Virus record (IMG/VR): IMGVR_UViG_3300020201_000020
Span: 1 to 60,060 of that record
Length of the DNA stretch: 60,060 nt
Reading direction: 5' to 3' (one strand)
Origin: a virus
In this document: piece by piece, positions 90-47,120 of the stretch
Numbering within the stretch: the first letter of the stretch is position 1
Layout: every line of letters starts with the position of its first letter
Program-made: the position numbers and the translations under genes
The notes under the pieces: model-generated
Databases searched by the model: none
Seen by the model: the letters and a program-made list of their open reading frames with translations, nothing else
What the model was told of the DNA's origin: nothing

Positions 90-356
90 ATGTTTAAGTG
101 GAATGAAAAAAATACCAAAAGCACAATCTGGAATGCCGAGATTGGGAGCAAAGAGATCAGACCGTTCTCTCCAAAAGAAATTATCATAAGCCCAAACCTT
201 CACCAGTTTGAGGGAATCATTTCTGCTCTATGTAAGACCGTTACAGAACTAATGGCACTTGAAGAAGAACGTGATCAGCGAATGATGAATATGATCAATT
301 CAAGACAGCCTTCAAAAGATCAGCTGGAATTATTTGAAACAGTAGAACAACTATAA
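90..356 (+). CDS. Small hypothetical protein upstream of dnaE
   Basis: An 88-residue protein of unknown function. The ATG at 90 is chosen because AAGGAG lies 5 bases upstream; the in-frame ATG at 39 has no comparable site. The stop overlaps the dnaE start (TAATG), so the two are probably translationally coupled. The protein is charged, has no membrane segment, and ends LELFETVEQL, which loosely resembles the C-terminal peptide shared by many small proteins further downstream. Confidence 0.65.
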   Translation: MFKWNEKNTKSTIWNAEIGSKEIRPFSPKEIIISPNLHQFEGIISALCKTVTELMALEEERDQRMMNMINSRQPSKDQLELFETVEQL

Positions 357-6757: not shown

Positions 6758-6973
6758 ATGGCAGATAGAATTTCTTATTCTTTTAACGCCAAGGTCAACA
6801 TAGGGAATTATGAAAGCTTGGGATTTCATCTTTCCTTTGAGACTGATGTGAAGGAGGGTGAAAATCCCTCCCAAACACTTAAACGAGTACAGTATTTTGT
6901 AGAGAAAAAAGCAGAGGAGAAGATGGATGAATTTAGAACACTCAAGCGAACCGATGGTGCAACCGAGGATTGA
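6758..6973 (+). CDS. Small hypothetical protein between SSB and RecA
   Basis: A 71-residue protein, soluble in appearance, with a beta-rich first half (ISYSFNAKVNIGNYESLGF) and a helical, Lys/Glu-rich second half. AGGG precedes the ATG by 7 bases. Its 3' end overlaps the recA start by 47 bases in another frame, which suggests coupled expression. Function unknown; its place hints at a recombination or replication accessory role. Confidence 0.7.
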   Translation: MADRISYSFNAKVNIGNYESLGFHLSFETDVKEGENPSQTLKRVQYFVEKKAEEKMDEFRTLKRTDGATED

Positions 6974-11091: not shown

Positions 11092-11425
11092 GAAATGGGT
11101 AAAGGAAAAAGTCTACGAGCAGACCGTTGATCACGGAAACGTGCAGCCACGCCTAGACTATAGGGATTGGTCGATCTTTTTCAACTCATGCGCCGGATTG
11201 ATCCAATATAAAGCAAAAGGGGTGCAAGACCTCGCAGATTTCAGAAACAATTGGGCCAATAAATTCCATATACTTGTAGACGCTCACGGCAGGGGCTTGG
11301 ACGTTACAGACAACTTCTTTAACCTATATGGCGATATTCTTCGCTCAAACGTACAAGTGAAGTACAAAGCTAATCTCCGCACAAGACTAAGGTTGAAGAA
11401 ATGTTATTTAAAGCGATTAATCTAA
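11075..11425 (+). CDS. Hypothetical protein upstream of sbcC
   Basis: A 116-residue protein with no recognised family. GAGGAG lies 5 bases before GTG 11075 but 14 bases before the ATG at 11084, so GTG is preferred. It overlaps the previous gene by 17 bases and sbcC by 25. The centre contains an aromatic-rich segment (RDWSIFFNSCAGLIQY) and the end is strongly basic. Confidence 0.7.
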   Translation: MLKMIKKWVKEKVYEQTVDHGNVQPRLDYRDWSIFFNSCAGLIQYKAKGVQDLADFRNNWANKFHILVDAHGRGLDVTDNFFNLYGDILRSNVQVKYKANLRTRLRLKKCYLKRLI

Positions 11426-14151
11426 AAAATTTCATGTCATTCCATAAGGAAACATTTTCAGACCTCGACAGAAGGGGCTTAACTCTTATTGAGGGGAAGA
11501 ATCTTGACGACGGAGACAGTAATGGTTCTGGGAAGTGCTTCGCTAAGGGTACAAAGGTTCTCATGTTTAGTGGGTTCTCTAAAAACGTAGAGGACGTTAT
11601 TGTTGGCGACCTACTTATGGGGCCAGACTCCAAAAAGAGGACGGTTACGGATCTCGGAAGAGGGAAGTCTGTCATGTATAAGATTACCCCAACCAAGGGA
11701 GAGTCTTTTACAGTTAATTCTGAACATATTCTTTATGGATACGATGCAAGAATTAAGAAAGATTTTAAAATAAAAACAAAGGACTATTTAGATCTCCCCG
11801 AGTGGAAGAAGAAGCTTTTGATGCTTAAAACTTGTGAAGGGATTGAGTATAAGGATTCTTACACTCAGCCGATCTCTCCCTACATCCTTGGAGCGTGGCT
11901 CGGAGATGGTCACTCTGATTGCTTTGCTGTAACTACGATGGACGACGAGCTTGATCAGGCGTTTAGACAGGAGTGTTTAGAGTGGGGGCTTCTAGTCAGA
12001 AAATGTCAGAAGAAAGGCAGCAAGGCTCGGACTCTTATCGCTCACAATAATTGGAACAACACTATAAACGCCACTATTCATTCGATGTGTTTGTTTGACA
12101 ATAAGCATATCCCGTACAGATATCAGATTAGTTCTAGGGCCAATAGGTTGGAGCTGTTAGCTGGGTTAATAGACACCGACGGTCACGCTGGTAGAAAAAC
12201 TCATTACGAAATATCTTTTGTGCATGAGAGATTGGCAGAAGACACGATAAGGCTTGCGAATTCTCTTGGTTTTTTTGCTTACGCTAGAGATAAGGTGGTC
12301 AAGGGTAAGACGTATAAGAGAATATCTATCGTGGGAGACATAACAGAAATACCAGTCAGGCTTGAAAGAAAGAAGTGCAGAAAGAAGAACTACGAGAAAG
12401 ATCACAGACATGTAGGGTTTAAAGTTGAAAGCGTTGGCAGAGGGGACTATTACGGATTTACTCTTAATGGAAACAATTTGTTTCTATTAGATAGCTTTTT
12501 TATTGCTCACAACAGTAGTCTTTGGGACGCAGTCAGCTTCGCACTGTTCGGCCATACCGTTAGGGGCCTAAAAGGTGACGACGTTGTTCATTGGAAATTT
12601 AAGAAAGAATGCGAAGTCCGTGTTGAGTTTGAATTCAAGGGTCAAACATGGGCGGTCGTTAGAACTCGCAAGCCTGACAGGTTCTACGTAGAGATAGACG
12701 GCAAGACTTATGAGCTTGGAACTACGGCGATGACGCAGCAGTGGTTGATCGACGCACTCGAAATTGATTATGACCTATTCCGTTCGACCGTTGTATTCGC
12801 TCAGGGCGAAACTTTCAACTTTGTGAATTCAACCAACAAGGAACAGAAGGAAGTCCTCTCTAAGATTATGAGGATTAGCTACGAAGCACGTTTGAACAAG
12901 GCCAAGGCAAAGATCAAGGATCTGAAAGAAAAGAAGTCTGACGTAGACAGGAACCTAACCGTGTTGAACTCGCACATCATAGAAGGGGAAGACTTCTTCA
13001 GTGATGAAATTGAAGACTGGGAAGCCTCACGTACGGCCAGAATTGATAGAAAGAAGAATGAGGCTAGGGATATCAAGAAGAAGCTCGAGGGACTAAAAGA
13101 CGACGACGCTTCAGTTATGGAAAAACAAATCAAAGAGAACACAGAAAAAATTGACCAGATACGAGCTAGAGGTGCTGACTATGTTACGAAAGCGGCAGAC
13201 CTTAGAGCAGAAGTAAAACAGGCGCAGAAGTATTTAGATAGTGCTGAAGACCTAATGAAGGCTCCTGAATGTCCTACGTGTGGGCATGACATTGATGGAC
13301 TAGCTCTTGCTGACAAGCTTCGCCACGTTGAATCTGAAATGGAGATCACAAAGGTTGAGCTCTTAAAGTGGGAAGAGAAGGTCATGTTATCTAATCAGGG
13401 ACAGGACAAGCTTTCAAAGTCTAGTCATGACCTACGAAACAAAGTGATGGTCGTTAAATTGGCGACGCAGCAGAGAGTCCTTTTAACCGAATCAGTTTCA
13501 GACATTCTTGAAGAAGTTAAAGAAATAAAGGCTGAAGAGAATCCGTGGTTCAAGAAGCGTGTTGGCGAACTAATTAAGCAGAAAGACATCAGGACTAAAA
13601 TAGCAGCATTCGAGAAGACCAAGGAGTCAGTTGATGCCATGATCCCTTACGTGGACTTCTGGGTTAACGCCTTCGGGGACTCGGGAATCAAGTCTTTCGT
13701 ATTTGACCTTGTGTGTGCAACTCTAACGACTAGAACCAATTACTACCTGAACATTCTCACCAGTGGGAAAGTTATAGTGACGTTTGACACTCAAAAGAAG
13801 ACAAAGTCTGGGGAAGTCCGTGAGAAGTTTGATTGCGAAATATTGGTCGACGGGAAAACCGTTAAGTATGACGCTTATTCTGGTGGCGAGAAGCGTAGAA
13901 TATCACTAGCGGTTGATCTTGCTCTTAGCGATCTAATGTCTGATTACTACGTTCAAACTTTTAACATAGTGGTTTTTGACGAGCAGGATTTACACCTCGA
14001 CCGACAGGGACGTGTTGCATATCTGAATCTATTAAAAGAAGTGGCGAAGACTAAGCATGTTTTTGTCGTTGCTCATGACACTGAATTTAAGGCAACATTT
14101 GACGACGTATTAATTATTCAGAAACGTGACGGCATTTCCGCTGTCATTTGA
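11401..14151 (+). CDS. sbcC: SbcC/gp46-like SMC-type ATPase with intein
   Basis: Rad50/SbcC ATPase, partner of SbcD. The N-terminal P-loop (DSNGSGK) is interrupted by an intein at residue 46; after splicing it reads GSNGSGKSSLWDAV. A long coiled coil follows, with the zinc hook CPTC at about residue 624 in its middle. The C-terminus has the ABC signature (YSGGEKRRISLAVDLA) and Walker B (NIVVFDEQDLHLD). Of 916 residues, 326 are intein, leaving 590, close to T4 gp46. Expected complex: an SbcC2-SbcD2 exonuclease for recombination or host DNA breakdown. Confidence 0.95.
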   Translation: MLFKAINLKNFMSFHKETFSDLDRRGLTLIEGKNLDDGDSNGSGKCFAKGTKVLMFSGFSKNVEDVIVGDLLMGPDSKKRTVTDLGRGKSVMYKITPTKGESFTVNSEHILYGYDARIKKDFKIKTKDYLDLPEWKKKLLMLKTCEGIEYKDSYTQPISPYILGAWLGDGHSDCFAVTTMDDELDQAFRQECLEWGLLVRKCQKKGSKARTLIAHNNWNNTINATIHSMCLFDNKHIPYRYQISSRANRLELLAGLIDTDGHAGRKTHYEISFVHERLAEDTIRLANSLGFFAYARDKVVKGKTYKRISIVGDITEIPVRLERKKCRKKNYEKDHRHVGFKVESVGRGDYYGFTLNGNNLFLLDSFFIAHNSSLWDAVSFALFGHTVRGLKGDDVVHWKFKKECEVRVEFEFKGQTWAVVRTRKPDRFYVEIDGKTYELGTTAMTQQWLIDALEIDYDLFRSTVVFAQGETFNFVNSTNKEQKEVLSKIMRISYEARLNKAKAKIKDLKEKKSDVDRNLTVLNSHIIEGEDFFSDEIEDWEASRTARIDRKKNEARDIKKKLEGLKDDDASVMEKQIKENTEKIDQIRARGADYVTKAADLRAEVKQAQKYLDSAEDLMKAPECPTCGHDIDGLALADKLRHVESEMEITKVELLKWEEKVMLSNQGQDKLSKSSHDLRNKVMVVKLATQQRVLLTESVSDILEEVKEIKAEENPWFKKRVGELIKQKDIRTKIAAFEKTKESVDAMIPYVDFWVNAFGDSGIKSFVFDLVCATLTTRTNYYLNILTSGKVIVTFDTQKKTKSGEVREKFDCEILVDGKTVKYDAYSGGEKRRISLAVDLALSDLMSDYYVQTFNIVVFDEQDLHLDRQGRVAYLNLLKEVAKTKHVFVVAHDTEFKATFDDVLIIQKRDGISAVI
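11536..12513 (+). mobile_element. Intein in SbcC P-loop, LAGLIDADG type
   Basis: A 326-residue intein from Cys46 (CFAKGTKVLMFSG) to Asn371 (FFIAHN) with Ser at +1. Block B is FTVNSEHIL. Two LAGLIDADG helices are readable, ILGAWLGDGHSD and LLAGLIDTDGHAG, both with the acidic residue, so the endonuclease may be active. It splits the Walker A lysine from its serine, so ATPase activity needs splicing. Confidence 0.95.
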
Positions 14152-17120: not shown

Positions 17121-17679
17121 TACATGCAAGGTCGCTAATTATGTGGCGGTCAAAAAGCTTAAGTTTCATCCGAGCAATGCCGAGCTTCGTTCAATATCTC
17201 CTGAACGCTTTAACGAGCTAAAGAACTCGCTAGTGAATAAGGGATTCTATGAGCCTATTTTAGTTTGGAAGAAGAACGGCTACGTTTTAGCTGGCAACCA
17301 AAGACTTAAAGCGGCTCAAGAACTCATAGCTGAAGGTTACACGTTCATGACTCCTGACGGGAAGAAGAACGAGCTACCCGTTGTCGTTGAAGATGTGGAT
17401 GAAAAGATGGCGATGCAAATCCTCCATCAAGCTAACAATCATCATGGTGACTGGGTCACACAAAAACTAGCTGAAGCGATTCGTGAAGCTGGAGAGATGG
17501 GCGTAGCATTCGCTGACATGGGTTACAGTCAGGAAGATCACGACCGGATAATTAAAGAAGCTCTCGCTAGTATTGAAGATAAGGATTACTCAGATAAAAA
17601 CAAAGAAGTAAGTACGGAAGATTTTGGAAGCGACTTAGAGCACCAGTGTCCAAAATGCGGGTTTGAATTCAATGATTAA
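17101..17679 (+). CDS. ParB/Srx-fold protein, copy 1
   Basis: About 192 residues. The ParB/Srx fold is marked by KLKFHPSNAELR, KNSLVNKGFYEPILVW and the box GNQRLKAAQEL. The C-terminus adds a zinc-ribbon half (CPKCGFEF). It is a close paralogue of the gene at 18643, and the two flank a cytosine methyltransferase. ParB-like domains of this kind act as CTP-binding DNA clamps or nucleases, and in phages they often sit with DNA-modification genes. Start ATG 17101 has AAGG 7-8 bases upstream; ATG 17110 is also possible. Confidence 0.85.
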   Translation: MEEMVINTCKVANYVAVKKLKFHPSNAELRSISPERFNELKNSLVNKGFYEPILVWKKNGYVLAGNQRLKAAQELIAEGYTFMTPDGKKNELPVVVEDVDEKMAMQILHQANNHHGDWVTQKLAEAIREAGEMGVAFADMGYSQEDHDRIIKEALASIEDKDYSDKNKEVSTEDFGSDLEHQCPKCGFEFND

Positions 17680-18646
17680 GTTTATCCCAACATACAGATG
17701 GAGCTTAACAGACCTAGACAAGGTCAAAAAGAATGGGCTTAAAGTCTTTTCATGCTTCGCTTGCGGAGGTGGATCAACCATGGGTTACAAGCTCGCTGGT
17801 TTTGATGTGATAGGAGCAAATGATATTGATCCAGAGATGGCATGGCATTATAAAGAGAACCATGCTCCTAAACATTATTTCCTAGAAGACATTAGAAAGT
17901 TTGCAAAAAGAAATGACCTGCCAAAAGAACTTTATGAACTAGACATATTAGACGGCTCCCCTCCATGTTCAAGCTTCTCTATGGCCGGATCAAGAGAGAA
18001 AGGATGGGGCAAAAAGAAACAATTCAGAGAGGGGCAAGCACTTCAAACTCTAGATGATTTATTCTTTGACTTCATAGAACTCGGAAGAAAGCTGCAGCCA
18101 AAAGTTATCATCGCAGAGAATGTAAAAGGTATGCTTCAAGGTAATGCTAAAGGCTACGTAAAACAAATCATTGGATTGTTTAATACCATTGGCTACGATG
18201 TTCAATTATTTCTATTAAACGCCGCATCGATGGGTGTCCCTCAAGAGAGGGAGAGGGTTTTCTTTATTGCTCGCAGAGCTGATATAGCACTTCCCAAACT
18301 TGAGCTTTTATTTAATGAGAGGCCGCTCACGGTGAAAGAAGCTACTGGACTCGAGGGGCATACTTCGAACACAGCATGGCTTCGCCATGTTTTGGCCGGA
18401 AGAAGGCCTAAGTGGCATACTCATAAACGACCAGCACCAACTATAATGGGAACGGGCGGGGTATTTTTAATTGGCAAAGACAACAAACCGGAAAAGATCG
18501 GGCCACCACATATTAATCTTTTGGGTTCTTATCCTTTGGATTACAAGTTTCGAGGGGATCTAAGCTATATGATTGGCATGAGTGTCCCACCTTTAATGAC
18601 CTACGGAGTAGCTAATCAAATTTACAAACAATGGTTTAAAAAATGA
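17672..18646 (+). CDS. DNA (cytosine-5) methyltransferase
   Basis: A 324-residue C5 DNA methyltransferase. Motif I is FSCFACGGGSTMGYKLAGF. Motif IV, GSPPCSSFS, has the catalytic Cys99. ENV (motif VI) is at 149-151, QERER (motif VIII) at 191-195, and a motif X-like end (PPLMTYGVANQI) closes the protein. It transfers methyl groups to cytosines in a recognition site that cannot be read from sequence. No partner restriction enzyme is adjacent, so protection of phage DNA from host restriction is the likely role. It overlaps both ParB-like genes (8 and 4 bases). Confidence 0.93.
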   Translation: MIKFIPTYRWSLTDLDKVKKNGLKVFSCFACGGGSTMGYKLAGFDVIGANDIDPEMAWHYKENHAPKHYFLEDIRKFAKRNDLPKELYELDILDGSPPCSSFSMAGSREKGWGKKKQFREGQALQTLDDLFFDFIELGRKLQPKVIIAENVKGMLQGNAKGYVKQIIGLFNTIGYDVQLFLLNAASMGVPQERERVFFIARRADIALPKLELLFNERPLTVKEATGLEGHTSNTAWLRHVLAGRRPKWHTHKRPAPTIMGTGGVFLIGKDNKPEKIGPPHINLLGSYPLDYKFRGDLSYMIGMSVPPLMTYGVANQIYKQWFKK

Positions 18647-19428
18647 GCAAAAACGACAACAAGATTGAACTATGCAAAGTTAAAACTTACGCAAAGATTA
18701 GCGATCTAAAAGTTCATCCACACAACCCAAGAACAATCTCTGCTGACCGATTAGAGCAATTGAAAGCTTCAATACTAAAGAAGGGATTCTATGAACCTAT
18801 TTTAGTTTGGAAGAAGGGCGGCGTGGTGTTGTCAGGAAACCATAGGCTTCAAGCTGCCCGTGAACTCGTTGAAGATGGTTACGAATTCCTTTCACATGAC
18901 GGGCAGAAAGACGTGCTTCCCGTGGTCATTGAGGACATTGACTATAAGACTGCTGAAGCGATTCTATTTGAGGCGAACAATCATTATGCTGACTGGGTCG
19001 ATGATAAGCTTAAAAAGGCGGTTCAGGAAGCTCAAGCGCATGGGTCTGACATAGCTGACTTTGGCTTCTCACAGAAGGAACTCGACAGGCTATTAAAGAC
19101 TGCGTCAAAAGATGCTGACGAGGTTCTACGTATAACCAATGAAGACATTGATAGGGAGCTTGGCCCTAAGTTTTTGCAACCTGAGATCGTAGACCCTGTA
19201 AATGTTTCAGAGTTTGAATTGAAAGAGGAGGAGTTTGGATATTTAACCCTCCCTAAGAAGAACATAGATAAATTGAAAGGTTACCTCGTTATCATAGCTA
19301 AAGAGCTCGATCCAGATTGGGACAATGGTTCCCTTTCTGACGCAGCTGATGTATTGATAGGAGCGATTGAAAAATCCGGAATAATTGACGACATCAAGGG
19401 GAACAGCGATGGAGAAGAAGACGATTAA
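18643..19428 (+). CDS. ParB/Srx-fold protein, copy 2
   Basis: A 261-residue paralogue of the 17101 protein: both share GFYEPILVWKK, the GN[QH]RL box (here GNHRLQAAREL), ANNH and DWV. It has an extra C-terminal domain of about 100 residues instead of the zinc ribbon, ending acidic (DGEEDD). ATGA overlap with the methyltransferase stop. DNA identity is highest around the GFYEPILVWKK codons, so the pair arose by duplication. Confidence 0.85.
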   Translation: MSKNDNKIELCKVKTYAKISDLKVHPHNPRTISADRLEQLKASILKKGFYEPILVWKKGGVVLSGNHRLQAARELVEDGYEFLSHDGQKDVLPVVIEDIDYKTAEAILFEANNHYADWVDDKLKKAVQEAQAHGSDIADFGFSQKELDRLLKTASKDADEVLRITNEDIDRELGPKFLQPEIVDPVNVSEFELKEEEFGYLTLPKKNIDKLKGYLVIIAKELDPDWDNGSLSDAADVLIGAIEKSGIIDDIKGNSDGEEDD

Positions 19429-23135: not shown

Positions 23136-23928
23136 TAAGAAGATAGTTGCATGGTTTAGTGCTGGAGTGACTTCCACAATTGCTACGAAAATGACTTTGG
23201 AAAAGTATGGCAAGGACAATGTGGAGATAATTTTCTTTGAAACAGGAAGCCATCATGCTGACAACGCCAGATTTATAAAAGAATGCGAAGAGAAGCTTTT
23301 CTTTAAGAAAATAAGAACTGAGCAGGACAAACGCTTCACCAGTGTTGTGGACTTAATTAGAAAGCTGAAAGTTATTAATTTCGTCACAGGCGCAGAATGC
23401 ACCCGCACCATGAAAAAGAGGATGCGCTTCAAGCTGGAAAAGAAAGAAAAATTTGATCACCAAGTCTTTGGCTTTGAGTATGAAAAGAAAGAAATTAATA
23501 GGGCACTAAGGTTTAGTGAGCAATATCCTGAAACTAATCCAATTTATCCGCTGATAGAAAACAAGCTGACGAAATTAGATTGCTTGAAAATGCTTAATGA
23601 TTACGGCATCGCTATCCCCGCTATGTATCGACTTGGTTATAAAAACAATAACTGCGTAGGATGCGTTAAAGGTGGCATGGGCTACTGGAACAAGATACGT
23701 GTAGACTTCCCCTTAGTGTTTGATGAGATGGCAAAGGTTGAACGTGAGATTAATCGAACGTGCTTGCTTGAGACTATTAACGGCAAGAGGGTCAATCTAT
23801 TTTTAGACACCCTAGATCCTACGAGGGGAAGAAATGAAACCCTTGATTTAGGTGATTGTGGTGTGTTATGCGAGGTAGAATTCTCGGACATTGAGCATCC
23901 AGACTTACAAAAAATAATTGAAACGTAG
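23122..23928 (+). CDS. PAPS-reductase family (adenine nucleotide alpha hydrolase) protein
   Basis: A 268-residue PP-loop protein. The nucleotide loop is FSAGVTST at residues 12-19, a variant of SGGxDS. A second block, FFETGSHHADN, fits the family, and a C-terminal cysteine group (NNCVGCVKGGMGYW, then CGVLCEV) could hold metal or a cluster. Relatives reduce PAPS or act in DNA or tRNA sulfur chemistry; the substrate here is unknown. It is bracketed by 32-base direct repeats, suggesting it arrived as a cassette. Start ATG 23122 follows AGAAGGG. Confidence 0.8.
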   Translation: MDINNKKIVAWFSAGVTSTIATKMTLEKYGKDNVEIIFFETGSHHADNARFIKECEEKLFFKKIRTEQDKRFTSVVDLIRKLKVINFVTGAECTRTMKKRMRFKLEKKEKFDHQVFGFEYEKKEINRALRFSEQYPETNPIYPLIENKLTKLDCLKMLNDYGIAIPAMYRLGYKNNNCVGCVKGGMGYWNKIRVDFPLVFDEMAKVEREINRTCLLETINGKRVNLFLDTLDPTRGRNETLDLGDCGVLCEVEFSDIEHPDLQKIIET

Positions 23929-23950
23929 AAGGGTGCATGGATATTAATAA
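23919..23950 (+). repeat. 32-base direct repeat flanking a gene, copy 2
   Basis: Second copy of the 23104-23135 repeat, at the start of the 23937 gene. The two copies exactly bracket the PAPS-reductase-like gene, the footprint expected from insertion or duplication by short-homology recombination. Confidence 0.85.
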
Positions 23951-24320
23951 AATAACTGCAGCGTTGGACATGTTAACCAGCGCAATAGCCGAAGCTGGGC
24001 ATGATGGCGATTGCGAGCTTTCCGTAAACAGGGAAGCCTTCCGTCACATTGAACACGAAATGATGAAAAGGACTTCTGGCATGAGCGGCTCTCTTGTCCC
24101 TACTGGGCTAGGCAGTGGAATGCGAACAATCGAATTCAGAACATACACTGCTCGAGTTCGTCTTTACGAACTTAGAGGGTCACCTAGTAGTCGCTACATG
24201 GACAAGCTTGAAGATCCCAGTCTCATCATCGAAGCACCAAAGTATGCCAAGAAGAAAAAGCCATATAACAAAGAATACGAAACGGCAGAGAAATTCCAAC
24301 GGGAGATTGAAAGACTATGA
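23937..24320 (+). CDS. Hypothetical protein
   Basis: A 127-residue protein whose first codons (MDINK) are duplicated at the previous gene. The end is basic (KYAKKKKPYNKEY) and finishes KFQREIERL, a weak match to the shared C-terminal pattern. The AGAAGGG site lies 4-5 bases before ATG 23937. No family recognised. Confidence 0.65.
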   Translation: MDINKITAALDMLTSAIAEAGHDGDCELSVNREAFRHIEHEMMKRTSGMSGSLVPTGLGSGMRTIEFRTYTARVRLYELRGSPSSRYMDKLEDPSLIIEAPKYAKKKKPYNKEYETAEKFQREIERL

Positions 24321-31949: not shown

Positions 31950-32090
31950 ATGAAAGGTTTTCTTCAGAGATCGTTGCTTAAGATTGTTGGGATTTGTTCA
32001 AAAGCAATGTCCCAGATTCACGCTCCGTTCACTCGTAAGAAAATATCAGCAAAACATTATCATGCAATTAATAAATGTCAGCTAAAGTAG
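31950..32090 (+). pseudogene. N-terminal fragment of papain-like NlpC/P60 (YiiX-type) hydrolase
   Basis: The first 42 or so residues (MKGFLQRSLLKIVGICSK, then HAPFTRKKISAKHY) match the start of YiiX/YebB-like permuted NlpC/P60 cysteine hydrolases as found in phages. The next expected block, with the catalytic His, is missing; the frame runs into foreign sequence and stops at 32090. The C-terminal part reappears at 33401. The intact enzyme would probably cut peptidoglycan or amide bonds. Confidence 0.65.
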
Positions 32091-32416
32091 AATTAGATTA
32101 TGTTAAGCTAGATGCTCTCTTGCAATTTAAGGCAACAAAAAGATTTTGTGCTGAATATATTGGTGTCTCAGAAGATGCTATCGACAGGCGATTGAGAGAA
32201 GAGCATAACATGACATTCACTGAATATCATGCAATGAGATTAGAACGTACTGCGGTAAAACTACAACAAAAGGCTATCGAAATGGCGTTGGCTGGCAATA
32301 CGGTTATGATGATATTTTCATTAAAGAATCTTGCTGGTTGGTCTGACAAGCTAGAGACAAGAGTGGATTCAACTCTGATTCAAATAAATATCGACAATGA
32401 TGATAATGAGCTTTAA
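32075..32416 (+). CDS. Terminase small subunit (foreign segment)
   Basis: A 113-residue protein. Helix-turn-helix: LQFKATKRFCAEYIGVSED, then RRLREEHNMTFTEY; the C-terminal oligomerisation part is MALAGNTVMMIFSLKNLAGW. This is the usual look of small terminases that lie next to a large terminase of the LFGGSRSGKT type, as here. It would recognise pac/cos DNA of its original phage. Stop and next start overlap (TAATG-like), so the gene pair was imported together. Confidence 0.7.
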   Translation: MSAKVELDYVKLDALLQFKATKRFCAEYIGVSEDAIDRRLREEHNMTFTEYHAMRLERTAVKLQQKAIEMALAGNTVMMIFSLKNLAGWSDKLETRVDSTLIQINIDNDDNEL

Positions 32417-33189
32417 TGATTAATTTACTACATGGTGATTGCTTAGAGCTTATGAAATCTATTCCCGATAAATCAATTGATATGATTTTAACCGATCCAC
32501 CTTATGGAACTACAGCTTGTAAATGGGATGTAGTAATTCCATTTGAACCAATGTGGATTGAGTTAAAAAGAGTGATTAAAGATAATGGTGCTATCTGTTT
32601 ATTTGGGAGTGAACCTTTTAGTAGTCACCTTAGATTAAGTAATTTAAAGATGTTTAAGTATGACTTAGTTTGGGACAAAATGAGATCGGGAGCAATAGGT
32701 GTTGCGAAGTATCGGCCAATGCCAAGCTTTGAAAACATTATGGTGTTCGGAAAGAGTAAGACTACTTACAATCCTCAAATGAGAATAGGGAAGGCGTATA
32801 TTGACAAGAGGGGTGATGATACTGTCATCGAGAATCTATATGAAAATGCGCATAAGTATGGATTCAATAGTAAAAAAAGCCAGCACAATGAAGGTGTCAG
32901 ATACCCATTAAGTATATTACCTTTCGTTAAGTTTAATACTAAAGGTAATCACCCCACTCAAAAACCCGTTCCATTATTAGAATACCTTATCAAAACATAT
33001 ACATTAGAAAATGAAACAGTATTAGATTTCACAATGGGAAGTGGTTCAACAGGCGTTGCCTGTATTAATTTAAATAGAAACTTTATTGGAATTGAAAAAG
33101 ATGACAAATACTTTGAAATTGGATCAAAAAGAATTAAGGATTGCCTAGATTCAAAGACAGAGATAGCCAGAGAGCGAATAGGTGTTTAA
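32416..33189 (+). CDS. DNA adenine-N6 (or cytosine-N4) methyltransferase
   Basis: A 257-residue amino-methyltransferase. Motif IV is DPPY at residues 27-30; motif I is near the C-terminus (VLDFTMGSGSTG, from residue 203), an order typical of the beta class. NHPTQKPVPLLEYLI is also seen. It looks complete. Phages often keep such enzymes between terminase genes. The target sequence is unknown. It is AT-richer in feel than the flanking late genes, which fits import. Confidence 0.9.
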   Translation: MINLLHGDCLELMKSIPDKSIDMILTDPPYGTTACKWDVVIPFEPMWIELKRVIKDNGAICLFGSEPFSSHLRLSNLKMFKYDLVWDKMRSGAIGVAKYRPMPSFENIMVFGKSKTTYNPQMRIGKAYIDKRGDDTVIENLYENAHKYGFNSKKSQHNEGVRYPLSILPFVKFNTKGNHPTQKPVPLLEYLIKTYTLENETVLDFTMGSGSTGVACINLNRNFIGIEKDDKYFEIGSKRIKDCLDSKTEIARERIGV

Positions 33190-33400
33190 GAAGACAGCGG
33201 CCCAGGTTAAAGCGACTATCATTCTAGGATCAAGGGCCATTCACATAATGCTATTTGGTGGATCTCGCTCGGGAAAAACCTTTAAGATATGCAGGGCAAT
33301 CATCGTACGTGCTTCAAAAACTCAATCAAGACATGCTATTTTAAGACTTAACTTTAATCATTGCAAGACATCGATCTGGATGGACACTCTCCCTAAGGTG
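33182..33400 (+). pseudogene. Large terminase, N-terminal fragment only
   Basis: About 73 residues from GTG 33182. It contains the terminase Walker A region (IMLFGGSRSGKTFKI) and a following block (TSIWMDTLPKV), then breaks off; the frame continues to 33451 through out-of-frame hydrolase sequence. Walker B and nuclease domain are absent, so it cannot package DNA. It is a different terminase family from the complete one at 33715. Confidence 0.75.
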
Positions 33401-33597
33401 ACTTTGAGCTTATGCAATCAGACATTGAAAAGTTCTATTGCAGCGAGTTAGTGTATTTCGCCTACGACAAAGCAGTTCAACACTCTCCATTCAAACTACG
33501 AACCACACTCGGCAGAGAAACAGTTACTCCACAAGACTTCTATAATGCTAAAAAGAAATTCAAACAAATTTGGCATAGTGATGAAATGTCTGCTTAA
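33401..33597 (+). pseudogene. C-terminal fragment of the NlpC/P60-like hydrolase
   Basis: The frame containing ATG 33412 reads FELMQSDIEKFYCSELVYFAY, which holds the catalytic Cys block FYCSEL, then SPFKLRTTLGRETVTPQDF and KKKFKQIWHS, the usual end of YiiX-type enzymes. The catalytic His block is missing. It may be translated from ATG 33412 but should be inactive. Confidence 0.65.
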
Positions 33598-33714
33598 ATT
33601 AAAGAAACGTAGTTCTTTCAGGGCTATGTATTAGGGGTCTTGCAGGTTCTACGTCTTAGGGGTGCAGATGCTTATGAGTCTTCATCCCTAAATTATTAGA
33701 TTGGAATTATTATA
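33598..33714. other. Non-coding gap before large terminase
   Basis: 117 bases with two TTAGGGGT words, a GGTTCTACGTC copy of the dispersed half-site, and TTAGGG ... CCCTAA inverted arms at about 33657-33692. It probably holds the promoter or an operator for the packaging operon; I see no clear -35/-10 pair at normal spacing. Confidence 0.4.
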
Positions 33715-35184
33715 ATGATTGAAGAGATTGAAGACCTTGATGGCATAGAATTTTTAGGTGAGATGGTCGACGACGATATGCTCATGAAGTACGACCTCGC
33801 CCACTTCGCAGAAACCATGTTGAACATGGAAATTTCACAACATCATATTATTTGGGCAAAGATGGTAGCGGAGAATCCGAAGCTAGGAATCAACGCCCCA
33901 CGAGATCACGGTAAATCATTCCTATTCTCATTCGCCTATGTAATCTGGAGAGTCTATTACAATTGGCTCCCCACACAGCTTATGAGTCTGGAAAACTTCA
34001 AGTCAGTCCCGAGAATCTCTATTGGATATATCTTTTCAAACACCGTCGATCAGGCCGTCTTACTTCTCGACCTCGTGAAGCAGGAGGTGGAATCTAACCC
34101 AAGACTTCAGCATCTAGTACCTGCACGTAAAGATGTTTGGTCTAAAACAGCGGTTAAGTTTTCAAACGGTTCTCAAGTTCGAGCAAGAGGTTGGAATCAA
34201 TCTGTGCGAGGAGCCCACCCAGTCTGGATTGTTTGTGACGATGTTTTAAAAGATGAGATTATCTATTCAGAGGTTCAAAGAAAGAAGTACAACGACTATT
34301 TCTTTTCAGCAGTGACACCCATGCTAGTACCATGCGGTCAGCTCATCGTTGTCGGGACACCTATGCATCAAGATGATTTGTATGCACAAATCCAAAAGAC
34401 GGACATCTACGAGTTTAAGAAGTTCAAGGCAATGGAGAACGGAATCGCATTATGGCCTACACGCTATAACCGTCAGATGCTTGAAGCTAGGAAGCGTGAG
34501 GTTGGATCCACACGTTTCGCCCGTGAGTATATGTGTGAGCCAATCACGGATGACACATCGCTATTCACGGAAAGAATTATAAGTCAGTGCTGTGATAATT
34601 TATATGAAATGCCTATTGAGCTTGATGCTGACGATAGGAAAGAACTCAGAATATTTACCGGCGTGGATTTAGCTATCTCGTCAACAGTGGGAGCGGATTA
34701 TACCGTCATTCTAACGATAGGGGTTGATTCAAGGCAGCAAAGATATATTTTAGATATCGTACGAAAGAAGGGACTTCAGATGACCGAGCAGCTGATGCTC
34801 ATTCAAGATGTTTACAAAAGATTCAGACCGCAGAAAATAAAGATCGAGTCTAACGGCTTCCAAAGAGTATTCACGGATCAGCTTACACGAAACACTGACA
34901 TGCCTGTGGAAGCGCACATCACCACACGTATTAATAAGAACTCCCTAGCTGAAGGCGTTCCTTCACTTCAGATTCAATTCGAGAATAGGAAGTTTATCAT
35001 TCCAAGAAAGACGGCACGATGCAGAGAGAAGACCCAGCCTATCATCGACGAGCTTAAAGCCTTCACGTTCACAGATGGAAAGCTACAAGGTCTCGGAACT
35101 CACGACGACTGTGTAATGGCCCTCTGGATAGCTAACTCATGCGTAGGCGAATCAGAATTCTCATTCTCTATGGTAGGCGAGTGA
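33715..35184 (+). CDS. terL: Terminase large subunit
   Basis: A 489-residue packaging motor. ATPase: a deviant Walker A (APRDHGKS, residues 61-68) and Walker B (VWIVCDD, D175, D176), then the coupling motif IVVGTPM. Nuclease: GVDLAIS (D318) and a C-terminal HDDCVMALW. The length is complete. It is the phage's own enzyme and is unrelated to the truncated one just upstream. The weak TTGGA site precedes ATG 33715; the next gene overlaps its stop. Confidence 0.93.
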   Translation: MIEEIEDLDGIEFLGEMVDDDMLMKYDLAHFAETMLNMEISQHHIIWAKMVAENPKLGINAPRDHGKSFLFSFAYVIWRVYYNWLPTQLMSLENFKSVPRISIGYIFSNTVDQAVLLLDLVKQEVESNPRLQHLVPARKDVWSKTAVKFSNGSQVRARGWNQSVRGAHPVWIVCDDVLKDEIIYSEVQRKKYNDYFFSAVTPMLVPCGQLIVVGTPMHQDDLYAQIQKTDIYEFKKFKAMENGIALWPTRYNRQMLEARKREVGSTRFAREYMCEPITDDTSLFTERIISQCCDNLYEMPIELDADDRKELRIFTGVDLAISSTVGADYTVILTIGVDSRQQRYILDIVRKKGLQMTEQLMLIQDVYKRFRPQKIKIESNGFQRVFTDQLTRNTDMPVEAHITTRINKNSLAEGVPSLQIQFENRKFIIPRKTARCREKTQPIIDELKAFTFTDGKLQGLGTHDDCVMALWIANSCVGESEFSFSMVGE

Positions 35185-35381: not shown

Positions 35382-35439
35382 TTTGCCAAAATTCAGATGA
35401 CAATCCAGACTAGAGTTATAACTAAGCTTGTGGGTGAAA

Positions 35440-35703
35440 ATGATTGGACGATGTATCTGGTTCGATATCAAAAAAGGTTTTGGGTTTATTCGTGGTGAAG
35501 ATCGAATAGACTACTTTGCCCACTACTCAAAAATCCAAGCTAAAGACGGTGAATTCAGAACTCTCGAAGAGAATGAGCAAGTTTCATTTGAGCCATTTAT
35601 GACATTACGACCTGACGGGACAGACAAACCGCAGGCAAAAAATATAACTAGCTTGGAGAGTAAAGATGAGATTGTCAGAGAAGAGTTTCGCAGCTCTATC
35701 TGA
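35440..35703 (+). CDS. Cold-shock domain protein
   Basis: An 87-residue CSD protein that should bind single-stranded RNA or DNA. The RNP-1-like block reads KKGFGFIRG, followed by FAHYSKIQ (in place of the usual FVH), FRTLEENEQVSFEP and a C-terminal strand. GGGTGAAA precedes ATG 35440. Cold-shock proteins act as RNA chaperones; next to a sigma factor it may help switch expression to late genes (inference). Confidence 0.85.
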   Translation: MIGRCIWFDIKKGFGFIRGEDRIDYFAHYSKIQAKDGEFRTLEENEQVSFEPFMTLRPDGTDKPQAKNITSLESKDEIVREEFRSSI

Positions 35704-35727: not shown

Positions 35728-36399
35728 TTGAGTAATGATAAAATAACCCGTTGGGTCAAGATCGTAGTTATGAGACTATTGAGGGAAAAGAATCTCTTCC
35801 ATCTCGATGTGTCCATGCTCGTCTCGGCCGGACTATTCGGCTATTCACAAGCACTCCAAAGATTTGAACCTTCCCGTAAAGTAAAACTAAAGACATTCGC
35901 AGAGTATAGAATTCGTGGCGCAGTCTTGGATGAGGTTAGGAAGATGATTGGAGATGAGCGAGTAAAAAATAAACGTCCGTACCTGGTTAGCACCCATGAC
36001 TTTGAATTTCTCCTTTCAGACGATGGTGAACAGGAAGAACAATTAGGGGTTGAGCTTTTCTTAGAATCACTTCCTTTGGAAACGAGAGACCTGCATATTC
36101 TAAAACTTAAATATATGGGTTACAATCTTAGAGAGATTGCTCAGATCATTGGTGTCTCTAATTCACGAGCTTCCCAGTTAATGGCAAGAGTGAAAAAGAT
36201 AGTTTATGATCACCATGAAGGAACTTTAAAGTTCAAGCTGAAGAAATTTATATGTCCAGCTTGCGGCTCAGAGAACCACTATTCCGATGAAGTTGATAAT
36301 TTTAGATGTGATGTTTGCGACACCGTTGTAGGGATAATAGATGGGTTTCCGATAATTGTTGCAGATTCAATGGGAGAGTTTGATGCCAATGTTTTGTGA
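35728..36399 (+). CDS. Sigma-28 (FliA/WhiG)-like sigma factor with zinc-ribbon tail
   Basis: A 223-residue sigma-70 family protein. Region 2: LVSAGLFGYSQALQRFEPS, then FAEYRIRGAVLDEVRK, typical of the FliA/SigB group. Region 4 helix-turn-helix: LREIAQIIGVSNSRASQL. It is followed by a zinc ribbon (C176, C179, C194, C197) not normal for sigma factors. It would direct host RNA polymerase to phage promoters, probably the late genes that surround it. TTG 35728 is the first usual start; GAGGATAGG lies 10 bases before an ATT at 35722, which is a possible alternative start. Confidence 0.88.
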   Translation: MSNDKITRWVKIVVMRLLREKNLFHLDVSMLVSAGLFGYSQALQRFEPSRKVKLKTFAEYRIRGAVLDEVRKMIGDERVKNKRPYLVSTHDFEFLLSDDGEQEEQLGVELFLESLPLETRDLHILKLKYMGYNLREIAQIIGVSNSRASQLMARVKKIVYDHHEGTLKFKLKKFICPACGSENHYSDEVDNFRCDVCDTVVGIIDGFPIIVADSMGEFDANVL

Positions 36400-37348
36400 T
36401 ATAACCGAAATTGCAGATACGCTTGATGACATGATCGAAAAAGGTCTAGCTATCAAGACAAACCAACAGGAAGACCTTCGTAAAGGTTTGACCTTCGATC
36501 CGTTCAATCCTTCAACCATGCACGAGCAGTCAACCATCTATAACCCTTACAAGTGGGTCGATGATGGTTACATGCCTTACACGGTGGATCATTGGAGAGC
36601 TTTAGGAAAATGCCCAGACAAGGAGAGCTATGCTGAAGTGGTGAAGCTCTACGACATGATCAACTTCAGGGTGTCGGCGTTCAAGTCATTCTCTAAGACA
36701 TTAGACACTGACCTGATCAAAGCTGGCGTTGTTCCCATTGGAACAGTTCACACCTATTCAAACGGTGTTAAATATAAAAAGATGCAGGAAGGTAAATGGG
36801 CACCGGTCAAAGACCTAAGCAAGCCCATGACTGGCCACGACGATATCGAGTCTCATGCTTCAGGCGTGAACAAGATCCAAGATCAAATCAAGTCACGAAC
36901 TAAAGACGATGCGCTCAGTGGCACTATTAAAGAAGAAGCTAAAAGAGAAGCACAGAAGCAAGTCCAAGAAGCCCTCAAGCAGGTGTTTGGTGGCGAGATG
37001 CCGGATGCCCTCAAAAAATACTTTGGAAAGGTCACCCAAGAGAACGACATGAAGGATCAAGAGAACGGAAAAGATGCTCCGACTAAATTGAAGGAAGCAG
37101 AAGAAGGACTCAAGCCTAAGAAGCACCACGTAGCGGTAGACTTCACGCATAACGGCAAAGCCTACAAGCATGAATTCCCGGCCGTCCATGGACATAGCAA
37201 AGAAGACGTTCAGGGTCGTGTAGTCGATATGATCAAAAAGAAACTTCCGGGTGCAGTCATTGGAAAAATTGCTGCCACATCGAAAGACGATGAAAAAGTT
37301 AAAGGACTAAGTCCTAAACAAGTTTGGAAAGATAAAAAGAAAGATTAA
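36383..37348 (+). CDS. Hypothetical portal-neighbour protein
   Basis: About 321 residues. GGAG lies 6 bases before ATG 36383. The C-terminal part (KHHVAVDFTHNGKAYKHEF, then VVDMIKKKLPGAVIGKIAA) looks like a small folded domain; the middle contains GTVHTYSNGVKYKKMQEGKW, related in pattern to HKYI...YVYV-type segments in the 40828 and 44510 proteins. Lys/Glu/Asp-rich. Possibly a minor virion or scaffold component. Confidence 0.65.
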   Translation: MPMFCDITEIADTLDDMIEKGLAIKTNQQEDLRKGLTFDPFNPSTMHEQSTIYNPYKWVDDGYMPYTVDHWRALGKCPDKESYAEVVKLYDMINFRVSAFKSFSKTLDTDLIKAGVVPIGTVHTYSNGVKYKKMQEGKWAPVKDLSKPMTGHDDIESHASGVNKIQDQIKSRTKDDALSGTIKEEAKREAQKQVQEALKQVFGGEMPDALKKYFGKVTQENDMKDQENGKDAPTKLKEAEEGLKPKKHHVAVDFTHNGKAYKHEFPAVHGHSKEDVQGRVVDMIKKKLPGAVIGKIAATSKDDEKVKGLSPKQVWKDKKKD

Positions 37349-37364
37349 AATTTAAGGAGACTAT

Positions 37365-38801
37365 ATGAACCAGCTCGAGAAGTTAGGCATCAAGATCGGC
37401 ACTCAAAAAACCATCGTAGACAACAGGATCCAAAAGTCTGAAGAGAACTATGACGTGTCACTTCAGGTTGTCCGTAAGGGTAACGGGATGTCACCTAGAG
37501 ACATGCTGGACAGACAGCTTTCTAAGGGAAGCAGCCTAGTCTACAAAGAGCCTAAACTAGTTCGCATGAGCAACCACGCAGACGATCAGTTAGACGCTGA
37601 CGATAGCTGGCAGAAGAAACGCCTTGAACAGCAAAACAAAGCTGACGCAGAGTTTGAATACGAGAAAGACTTTAATTATGCCCGTGGATCACACGGCGAA
37701 GAGTTTCATTCAGACGCTTCACTTCCAGACTATGCCATTCATGAAGTGGACAGGGAGTTCGGTGCCGAGTCACGCCCAGCCAAATCTAAAGCACGTCGTG
37801 ATGATTACGTAGGAGATGACCAAGGTGAAAAGCAGTACACCTATAAATCTGAAAACAATCTATTCCTTAAAGCCATTGATGCTTTAGATGATCTAGTCAA
37901 AGCGATTGACCCTTCTGAGAAGATGGCGAAGGACGCAGTTAATATTAAGAAAGAAAAGATGTCTAAGAAGCAGATGAACCTTGTTGCCAACATGCACGAG
38001 AATTCACCAGCGTTCACAGAGAAAAAGAAATCTTATTCAGACGTTGAAAAGGCTAATCCACTATTCCCCATCAAGCCTTCTAAGACGGTTAAAAAAGAGC
38101 CAAAAGATCCTGAAGAAAAGAATATAGAAAGAGAAGAAAGAGGCGAAGCTGAAAAGAGCTGCATGACCAAGTCAGACATTGACGAGCTTTATGATCTAAT
38201 CAAAGGCGGTTCAGTTCAGGAGATTGCCAAGGAAGAGGCGGCAGTTCGAGCTGCCCCAATCGCCAAGTCAGGAAAGTCTGAATATCTTAGACGTTCTCAT
38301 ATTCGTTCAGCCGGACAAGGTGGGCTCGTCTTCGACTTCGGCCCACTAACAGGGAATCCTATCGCCGACAATGCTACGGCCCTATTGAACGCCCATGGCG
38401 ACCAAGTACAGATGAACAATGCCAAGTATCAGTCTTCTGAATATAACAAGGCAATTGACTCATACGTAGAGAAAGGTGACGCAGCTTTTAGTTCTACTAA
38501 TTCTCCATTCAGCAATCTGAGCGGAGCTGCAGACCTAGATAAACCAATGGATCAGCAAGTGGCTGAAGCATTCGCCAAGGGTCTCTTAGATAATGACAAA
38601 TCAACTCCGGCGGTTAAGAATCATCATAACGAAAAACAAATGACCGTTGGTGGCGAAATCGTCAAAGCGACTTCTGAAACAGATGCCGCCTTAATCGAAA
38701 TGATGAAGGCTCAAGGCATGGACTTGTCTGACATGGCAGGGCATGGAGCGGTTGATGCGACAGGTGGTGGAGCTACTAAGGTGATTGCAGGATTGGATTA
38801 A
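37365..38801 (+). CDS. Hypothetical protein upstream of portal
   Basis: A 478-residue, hydrophilic and mostly disordered-looking protein rich in K, E, D and S, with glycine-rich ends (DATGGGATKVIAGLD). AAGGAG precedes ATG 37365. Its place and charge fit an internal head or scaffold protein, but no family was recognised. Confidence 0.65.
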   Translation: MNQLEKLGIKIGTQKTIVDNRIQKSEENYDVSLQVVRKGNGMSPRDMLDRQLSKGSSLVYKEPKLVRMSNHADDQLDADDSWQKKRLEQQNKADAEFEYEKDFNYARGSHGEEFHSDASLPDYAIHEVDREFGAESRPAKSKARRDDYVGDDQGEKQYTYKSENNLFLKAIDALDDLVKAIDPSEKMAKDAVNIKKEKMSKKQMNLVANMHENSPAFTEKKKSYSDVEKANPLFPIKPSKTVKKEPKDPEEKNIEREERGEAEKSCMTKSDIDELYDLIKGGSVQEIAKEEAAVRAAPIAKSGKSEYLRRSHIRSAGQGGLVFDFGPLTGNPIADNATALLNAHGDQVQMNNAKYQSSEYNKAIDSYVEKGDAAFSSTNSPFSNLSGAADLDKPMDQQVAEAFAKGLLDNDKSTPAVKNHHNEKQMTVGGEIVKATSETDAALIEMMKAQGMDLSDMAGHGAVDATGGGATKVIAGLD

Positions 38802-38805
38802 TACT

Positions 38806-40635
38806 ATGGGTTTTGTAAATGAGTTCCTATCTAAGTCGATAGAGTTCTATAAGGAAGAGATTGGCCCATTAAGGTACGATCTTGTTAAGGCTGGGATTCT
38901 AGCACCGGACAAATCGGCGTATGAACCTAAGTCCTCCCTCGTAGACCCTTTTTCTTATGGCCAAGTAAACCAAGGCTACAAAGAGAAATACGGAATCATC
39001 GACTATCAGAAATGTAGACAGATCACATACGCAGACCCAATAGTCGCTTCCATTGTCCAGACACGCTTGAACCAGCTTGCAGCTTTTTCAAAGCCACAGT
39101 CAGACAAGTACAAAGTTGGATACAAGATATCCCTACGTGACAAGGAGAAGACTCCCACGGATGCTGAGAAGAAAAGATGTAAAGAACTCGAGCAGTTCAT
39201 TTATAACTGCGGCGTTCCAGAAAACTTCGAGGACACTCCAGACCTAAGACGTAGAGATAGCTTTGAAACTTTCATGCGTAAGATTGGCCGTGACTCTTTG
39301 ACGTTTGATCAGATCAACTTCGAGGTCATTCCAAGAAACGACGGGAAGCCGTACCAGTTTCAAGCTGTAGACGGTTCAACCATTCGTGTGATCCCAGACA
39401 AGAAGGAACACGCAGAACGATCGTCAGGAAACTATAACGAAAAAAACAACAGGGTCTTCTCCAATGACTTCGGCACGGCCAAGATCTTTAAAGAATTTGA
39501 GCCTAAGAATCCAAAGTTCGCACAAGTAATCAACGGCATCATTCGTCATACATACGACGAGTGGGAGATGGCGTTTGGTGTAAGAAATCCTAGAACAGAT
39601 ATTTTAAGCGCAGGTTACGGCTATTCAGAAATTGAGATGCTTGTCACAACAATCACCTCTCACATGAATGCTGAAACATATAACAGAAAATTCTTCTCGC
39701 AGGGATCTACCATTAAGGGTGTTATGACCTTTGAAGGGAACGTCCCGCCAGATCAATTGGAAGCTTTCCGTAGACAGTGGTATCAGCAAGTGACGGGAGT
39801 GAACAACTCTTGGAGAACGCCGATCATGGCACTTGGGAAAGACTCTAAGCTTAACTGGACTTCACTCCATTCTACTAACAGAGAAATGGAATTTGGTAAG
39901 TGGCTTGAGTATTGTATCAAGACTATTTGCGGTGTGTTTCAAATTGACCCTATTGAAATTGGTTTCGATATTTCAAAGCAAGGCTCTGGAGCTTCAGGTG
40001 GCTCTGGCGGTCTAGGGAACGGGAACCAAGCTGAACGAATGAACTTTTCAAAAGACAAAGGGCTTCTGCCTTTGCTTACGTTTATCGCTTCGCTACTCAA
40101 TGACTACATCGTTTTTAGACTCGATCCAAACTTCGTCCTAGAGTTTGTCGGCCTGAATGGATCAACAGAGAAAGACGACCTCGACAGGGCAGTTCAACAA
40201 GTAAAATCATATAAAACAATTAATGAGATAAGAGCCGAACATGACCTTGAGCCTTTGCCGTCGTTTGAAGAAATTAAAAATCCGGGCGACGTTGTCCTTG
40301 ATCCTTCTCTTCTTAACTTTATCACCAGTCAGATCGCAGCAGCACAAGCTCCTGAAGGTGGAGAACTCGGGCCAGACGGACAACCCCTTGATCCGCAAGC
40401 CGAAGATTCGCCACCAGATATGCAAGAGCCTCAAGACGAAGGCGAACAGGAAGAAGAGCCTGACTACGAATCAATGTCTACTGAAGAGCTGCAAGCTGAG
40501 TTAGATAAGCTTCAAACACCACAAGCTGGCGGTGGAAAACCTCCTGCTAAAGGCAAACAGCCACAGCAGAAGCAACCACAGCCAACTAGAAAGAGCATGA
40601 AGGAATTTAAGAAATCACTGGAGCTAGAACTTTGA
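38806..40635 (+). CDS. Portal protein
   Basis: A 609-residue portal. It shows the sequence order of the family: ADPIVASIVQTRLNQLAAF near residue 80, QINFEVIPRNDGKPYQFQAV, GYGYSEIEMLVTTI, GVMTFEGNVPPDQLEAFR, and the C-terminal Gln/Pro-rich tail. It forms the dodecameric ring through which DNA enters the head and to which terminase docks. Its location after terL and before MuF supports this. ATG 38806; an upstream in-frame TTG is less likely. Confidence 0.9.
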   Translation: MGFVNEFLSKSIEFYKEEIGPLRYDLVKAGILAPDKSAYEPKSSLVDPFSYGQVNQGYKEKYGIIDYQKCRQITYADPIVASIVQTRLNQLAAFSKPQSDKYKVGYKISLRDKEKTPTDAEKKRCKELEQFIYNCGVPENFEDTPDLRRRDSFETFMRKIGRDSLTFDQINFEVIPRNDGKPYQFQAVDGSTIRVIPDKKEHAERSSGNYNEKNNRVFSNDFGTAKIFKEFEPKNPKFAQVINGIIRHTYDEWEMAFGVRNPRTDILSAGYGYSEIEMLVTTITSHMNAETYNRKFFSQGSTIKGVMTFEGNVPPDQLEAFRRQWYQQVTGVNNSWRTPIMALGKDSKLNWTSLHSTNREMEFGKWLEYCIKTICGVFQIDPIEIGFDISKQGSGASGGSGGLGNGNQAERMNFSKDKGLLPLLTFIASLLNDYIVFRLDPNFVLEFVGLNGSTEKDDLDRAVQQVKSYKTINEIRAEHDLEPLPSFEEIKNPGDVVLDPSLLNFITSQIAAAQAPEGGELGPDGQPLDPQAEDSPPDMQEPQDEGEQEEEPDYESMSTEELQAELDKLQTPQAGGGKPPAKGKQPQQKQPQPTRKSMKEFKKSLELEL

Positions 40636-47022: not shown

Positions 47023-47042
47023 CACTTTTTTGTTGCATCGCT

Positions 47043-47065
47043 AGTATTACGATGTAATACTTTTT
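47043..47065 (+). terminator. Rho-independent terminator
   Basis: AGTATTAC and GTAATACT pair perfectly (8 bp) around GAT, followed by TTTTT. It ends the portal-MuF gene group, 21 bases after the last stop. Confidence 0.75.
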
Positions 47066-47091
47066 AAATATCAGCATTTTTAGACTCAAGT

Positions 47092-47120
47092 TTGACGGAG
47101 TAGCTGAACGAAAATTAACT
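47092..47120 (+). promoter_or_regulatory. Possible promoter for the capsid operon
   Basis: TTGACG lies 17 bases before TTAACT, a sigma-70-like pair with a poor -10, between a terminator and the protease gene. The overlapping word TCAAGTTT (47086-47093) matches the -35 of FliA promoters in 7 of 8 positions, but the matching -10 is not at the normal distance. Either factor is possible. Confidence 0.4.

Follow-up and report, generated by a model that had tools for sequence, protein, structure and literature searches.

A conserved sigma factor with a predicted C-terminal zinc ribbon in phages related to SPO1

The gp36 protein of phage phiEco32 is a sigma factor that reprograms the RNA polymerase of its host. 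The same work is done by gp28 and gp34 of SPO1 and by gp55 of T4 (PMC9429907), and phage sigmas are in this sense a known means of transcription takeover. For the sporulation-like phage sigmas SPO1 gp2.21 and SP10 g120, which are non-essential, a host-manipulating role has been proposed (PMC9429907). Among bacterial sigma factors of the ECF type, CorE (PMC8999054) and OrbS (PMC9023288) possess C-terminal cysteine modules and sense metals. The literature searched, which covered subscription journals thinly, contained no description of a sigma factor bearing a zinc ribbon at its C terminus. Here we describe a phage protein in which the novelty is a conserved zinc ribbon placed on a FliA-derived core devoid of domain 3. 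It is a real, conserved and novel form of phage sigma factor, the function of which we infer. The DNA analysed (hereafter the window) makes up an entire IMG/VR record, 60,060 bases long, and represents a fragment of the genome of an uncultured myophage. Genes for PolIII alpha, a recombinase and SbcCD are followed on its + strand by those for terminase, portal, capsid and tail sheath.

A two-domain sigma protein related to FliA

The sigma gene occupies positions 35728–36399 of the + strand and encodes 223 amino acids from a TTG start, which is supported because relatives begin at the equivalent residue. Region 2 (residues 3–74, positions 35734–35949) is FliA-like and is the part best conserved in the family. 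Behind it come a short acidic linker that replaces sigma domain 3 and roughly corresponds to region 3.2 (residues 75–99, 35950–36024), region 4 with its helix-turn-helix (residues 100–160, 36025–36207) and the zinc ribbon (residues 171–205, 36238–36342), all on the + strand. Sigma regions 2 and 4 had already been recognised in a preliminary description of this DNA, and profile searches agree with it: the protein exceeded the cut-offs of Sigma70_r2 (Pfam PF04542, 26.6 bits against 24) and of the general sigma-70 model TIGR02937 (56.4 bits against 42.9, residues 9–157), and taken alone fell slightly below that of Sigma70_r4 (PF04545, 22.3 bits against 24.1). Both Pfam regions were matched in all 12 members of the family tested, with 9e-7 as the best E-value for region 4. 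The presence of these two domains assigns the protein to the sigma-70 superfamily, with presumable binding to core polymerase, and the restriction to regions 2 and 4 gives it the content of ECF (group 4) factors.

The same description regarded the protein as a factor of the FliA/WhiG type, which proved correct for region 2 but not for the protein as a whole. FliA_WhiG (TIGR02479) was indeed the top NCBI family, and specific ECF-type models scored far below it (the tree considered below was built without ECF references). However, the 73.5 bits obtained are far from the cut-off of 189.6 bits, and domain 3 is absent. Alignment with FliA proteins, suggested as a check, confirmed a shared region 2 and the loss of both domain 3 and the DWxPR segment: about 15 residues separate region 2 from the linker versus well over 60 in the aligned FliA proteins, only short helices were predicted where domain 3 would be, and at the place behind region 2.4 where FliA has DWxPR the family shows a conserved segment of IGDER type. 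The aspartate opening region 2.2 in FliA (DL) is also substituted across the family, while FKTFAEYRIKGAVLDEVRK in region 2 is nearly invariant and includes the aromatic residues of region 2.3. In sigma-70 aromatic residues at these positions act in promoter melting.

Sigma-28 was the best structural match of the full model (9wsf, Z 10.4, 1.9 Å over 72 residues by VIA-align), and a second sigma-28 match (9wsm) spans residues 1–168. Region 2 of the model is closest to sigma-28 of P. aeruginosa (Z 10.4, rows within 1 Z being tied). VIA-align served here as a second look at the full-length Foldseek search, which also returned sigma matches, with TM-scores that are low because the two domains are placed differently in the model. 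In the phylogenetic tree the ribbon-bearing family forms one clade among FliA-type sigmas, sister to FliA of Acidobacteriota (SH-aLRT 82), although its long stem makes the exact branch uncertain. Outside this clade, L026 is joined by SPO1 gp2.21 and the sigma of Adastra, and orthology to gp2.21 was rejected on that ground. Judged by sequence, the family shares common ancestry with FliA proteins, and the window protein belongs to a FliA-derived, ECF-sized zinc-ribbon sigma family rather than to FliA/WhiG.

A scan of IMG/VR with the single protein gave zero matches, and relatives were recovered by alignment queries, using an alignment with FliA proteins and later alignments of the relatives themselves. 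They comprise 13 further distinct phage members with 38–55% identity, 14 with the window protein (L031–L040, L042, L099 and L100; L038–L040 were first seen as L018–L020 and L042 as L022, while L037 and L043 share the same gene). By mean pairwise identity across the family, region 2 (0.79) is ahead of region 4 (0.53) and the ribbon (0.45). Among 84,980 bacterial and archaeal species genomes no ribbon-bearing member was found, only ordinary FliA-type proteins. Four tblastn matches from a gut phage collection (H3–H6) show no ribbon in any case and were rejected; open reading frames were read out for three of them, which proved to be ordinary FliA sigmas possessing domain 3 and probably represent bacterial DNA.

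The C-terminal zinc ribbon

The cysteines C176-x2-C179-x14-C194-x2-C197 stand at the C terminus exactly where the preliminary description put them, and 13 of the 14 distinct members retain the full set. Such a ribbon is lacking in all ordinary FliA proteins examined, in line with the statement that it is not seen in ordinary members. The only exception within the family is L042, encoded in the apparently complete genome G013, which retains regions 2 and 4; no frameshift restoring the ribbon was found in any of the three frames. In regions 2 and 4 as well as the ribbon, nonsynonymous changes are few while synonymous ones approach saturation (pN 0.12–0.37 and pS 0.86–0.97 for the ribbon), as is expected under purifying selection, and the ribbon is therefore a selected part of the sigma protein. 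Modelled alone by AlphaFold, it folded into a five-stranded beta ribbon (strands 6–10, 17–21, 26–28, 35–39 and 42–45 of the AF2 construct) with block-mean pLDDT of 81–96 outside the tail. Its conservation in 13 of 14 members, purifying selection and this predicted fold together argue that the four-cysteine module is not a product of chance.

With a pair of CxxC knuckles set on a compact beta ribbon, the modelled module has the zinc ribbon fold, and zinc binding is predicted. The best structural match was LysW (Z 5.5), and the S27e ribbon was also resembled with a modest Z. All Pfam matches of the ribbon were below curated cut-offs. This includes the TFIIB-type family PF08271, which is among the families matching most members (7 of 11, best E-value 4e-4, below cut-off) and which gave 17.0 bits against a threshold of 29 for the ribbon of the window. 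Thus the predicted ribbon fold is well supported by sequence and model.

Genomic surroundings and candidate regulatory sites

The sigma family belongs to SPO1-related myophages; portal and major capsid proteins of the window are about 39% identical to those of SPO1-like Herelleviridae. As had been noted before, the sigma gene lies at the entrance to the morphogenesis genes, between the large terminase subunit (33715–35184, +) and the SPO1-like portal protein (38785–40635, +), which bound a conserved cluster upstream and downstream, respectively, and directly after a gene for a cold-shock-domain protein (35440–35703, +). The conserved gene that follows (36383–37348, +) overlaps the end of the sigma reading frame. 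The order of terminase, cold-shock protein, sigma, two conserved genes and portal was found in every relative with enough flanking sequence, and in seven members the cold-shock and sigma genes are separated by all or the end of an extra gene of about 120 codons.

Three contigs of 108–115 kb (G008, G014 and G013) are probably complete, since they have terminal direct repeats, and each contains one family member. In G003, which belongs to the same clade (major capsid 70% identical), the cold-shock and 120-residue genes are present and sigma is absent: the two genes flanking its slot overlap and leave no space for it. Hence sigma is not indispensable within the clade, being either dispensable or replaceable, so that its gene may be dispensable for the phage, and the cold-shock gene is independent of it. 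A second sigma-like gene (phrog_1740), outside the ribbon family, was registered in G008 (23711–24301, −) and G014 (68463–69005, −), in both cases adjoining helicase and primase genes, with 32% identity between the two products; none was found in G013. It could be the main regulator in these two phages. An unsystematic look at the PHROG matches examined and at the overview of G014 reading frames revealed no phage RNA polymerase, which fits dependence on the host enzyme.

The FliA-type promoter motif GCCGATAA does not occur on either strand of the window, and together with the loss of DWxPR this leaves the suggestion that the protein takes over host motility promoters without support. Takeover of sporulation promoters, proposed along with it, is disfavoured by the tree, which separates the window sigma from sporulation-like gp2.21 of SPO1. 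No common promoter motif for the window sigma was established. CGATAA words, enriched in late gaps, were discarded as promoters, being scattered and mostly located in coding DNA. A weak lead is the promoter-like TTGC-N20-ANACT, which emerged from a comparison of orthologous upstream regions and occurs on the + strand of the window just twice, upstream of the cold-shock and sigma genes (35383–35411) and of the prohead protease operon (47033–47061). It is a post hoc lead only, because it was defined on one site and fails in some relatives.

Some other elements were observed as well. The sequence TTCTACGT occurs 14 times on the two strands of the window (at 3471, 7018, 9383, 12682, 14972, 19124, 19732, 20726, 23108, 23923, 27535, 33647, 50554 and 50707) versus about 0.4 per strand in shuffled sequence. 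In relatives it takes the form of dispersed palindromes, GTTTCTACGTAGAAAC-like in G014 (six) and G013 (five, within a late part of 39 kb) and AACTTCTACGTCGAAGTT in G008; the copies are possible protein-binding sites. The element AG[AG]CTCAAGTTTGACGGAGT upstream of the prohead protease (window 47082–47101) is conserved in 7 of 7 genomes, including the sigma-less G003, and in G014 an A-T to G-C change affects both sides of its 4-bp stem, the folding energy of which is not better than that of shuffles. No Rfam family was found in the window. In-frame inserts, likely inteins, interrupt PolIII alpha (with an intein N-terminal motif and HNH), the UvsX-like recombinase and SbcC (356–4417, 6927–8918 and 11401–14151 of the window) and also the portal gene of L043 (5896–8994); the prohead protease of G014 (17256–18896) probably carries one too. 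A low-GC stretch (35%) with a DNA methyltransferase spans positions 31950–33715; in the near-identical contig L002 the genes flanking it are intact and their order is different, and the two records therefore differ by rearrangement. In G014 a by-eye reading of the list of reading frames pointed to a small protein (96364–96660) resembling an RNA-recognition motif (LFVGNLNW ... GFGFVAFSD), unusual for a phage.

Possible function and comparison with known systems

The reading that we hold to be the likeliest, with fair though far from full confidence, is that of a phage alternative sigma factor that steers the host core polymerase to phage promoters and uses the ribbon as an extra contact; most simply, it probably points host RNA polymerase at phage genes. 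Region 2 would bind host core polymerase and melt the −10 element, region 4 would contact the −35 element, and the C-terminal ribbon would provide an additional docking or regulatory contact with the polymerase, promoter DNA or a phage cofactor. Polymerase would in this way be brought to a set of phage promoters, most probably ones that serve the middle or late genes around the sigma gene. In this scheme binding to core, the choice of promoters, the timing and the part played by the ribbon are presumed.

The absence of sigma from G003, together with the second sigma-like gene in two complete genomes, suits an auxiliary factor that switches host genes on and is unneeded for phage gene expression. 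So do the FliA type of the nearest bacterial relatives and the same post-terminase place of SPO1 gp2.21, which is reported as non-essential (PMC9429907). We nevertheless consider such a role unlikely: the tree sets the ribbon family apart from gp2.21, the DWxPR segment and domain 3 of FliA are lost, and the ribbon with the 79% identical region 2 suggests a specificity of its own. A decoy or anti-sigma, occupying the sigma-binding site on core polymerase and shutting host transcription off, could be imagined from the absence of domain 3 and the replaced aspartate of region 2.2, but it would hardly need the DNA-facing segment of regions 2.3/2.4 and the helix-turn-helix of region 4, both of which are conserved, and this makes it highly improbable.

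Two further ideas concern the ribbon itself, and we give either of them only a small chance. The sigma may be inactive until the ribbon, as an on-board metal or redox switch, binds or loses its metal. Cysteine-based C-terminal sensors of ECF sigmas OrbS (PMC9023288) and CorE (PMC8999054) provide a precedent, and the ribbon, present in 13 of 14 members, was lost in one that retains regions 2 and 4; yet a CxxC-x14-CxxC beta ribbon predicted with block-mean pLDDT of 81–96 outside its tail is more suggestive of zinc in a structural role than of a labile sensor, and the neighbourhood of sigma showed neither a metal gene nor a sensing partner. The other, just as doubtful, is that the ribbon docks on RNA polymerase as that of TFIIB does and replaces domain 3, which would make a third architecture between sigma and TFIIB: an initiation factor of a bacterial virus with the helix-turn-helix domains of a sigma and a zinc ribbon that docks on polymerase. 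If the alternative sigma that we favour is active, it would show how a sigma can lose domain 3 while gaining a new contact, identify a factor of promoter specificity in uncultured myophages related to SPO1 and make the comparison of sigma with TFIIB testable in a small protein.

The protein resembles FliA/WhiG factors (TIGR02479) in the RIRGA-LDEVRK segment of region 2, tree placement and sigma-28 as top structural matches, but differs from them in having neither domain 3 nor DWxPR, in scoring below the cut-off and in adding the ribbon. With SPO1 gp2.21 and the Adastra sigma it shares SPO1-related phages as carriers, a post-terminase gene (the SPO1 order being TerL, ParB-like nuclease, gp2.21) and an incomplete or absent domain 3 between regions 2 and 4; those terminase-adjacent sigmas, however, have no zinc ribbon. 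SPO1 gp28 and gp34, T4 gp55 and phiEco32 gp36 exemplify the work model proposed here; no ribbon is reported for them, and the likeness is limited to that model. Like CorE and OrbS, the window sigma is built of regions 2 and 4 and has a cysteine module at its C-terminal end, but those are bacterial ECF factors with metal-sensing modules, while the phage protein has a FliA-like region 2 and, as its module, a beta ribbon of CxxC-x14-CxxC type. A four-cysteine ribbon fold is common to the window sigma, TFIIB-type ribbons (PF08271), LysW and ribosomal S27e, with the difference that the ribbon of TFIIB is N-terminal and that of the phage sigma C-terminal.
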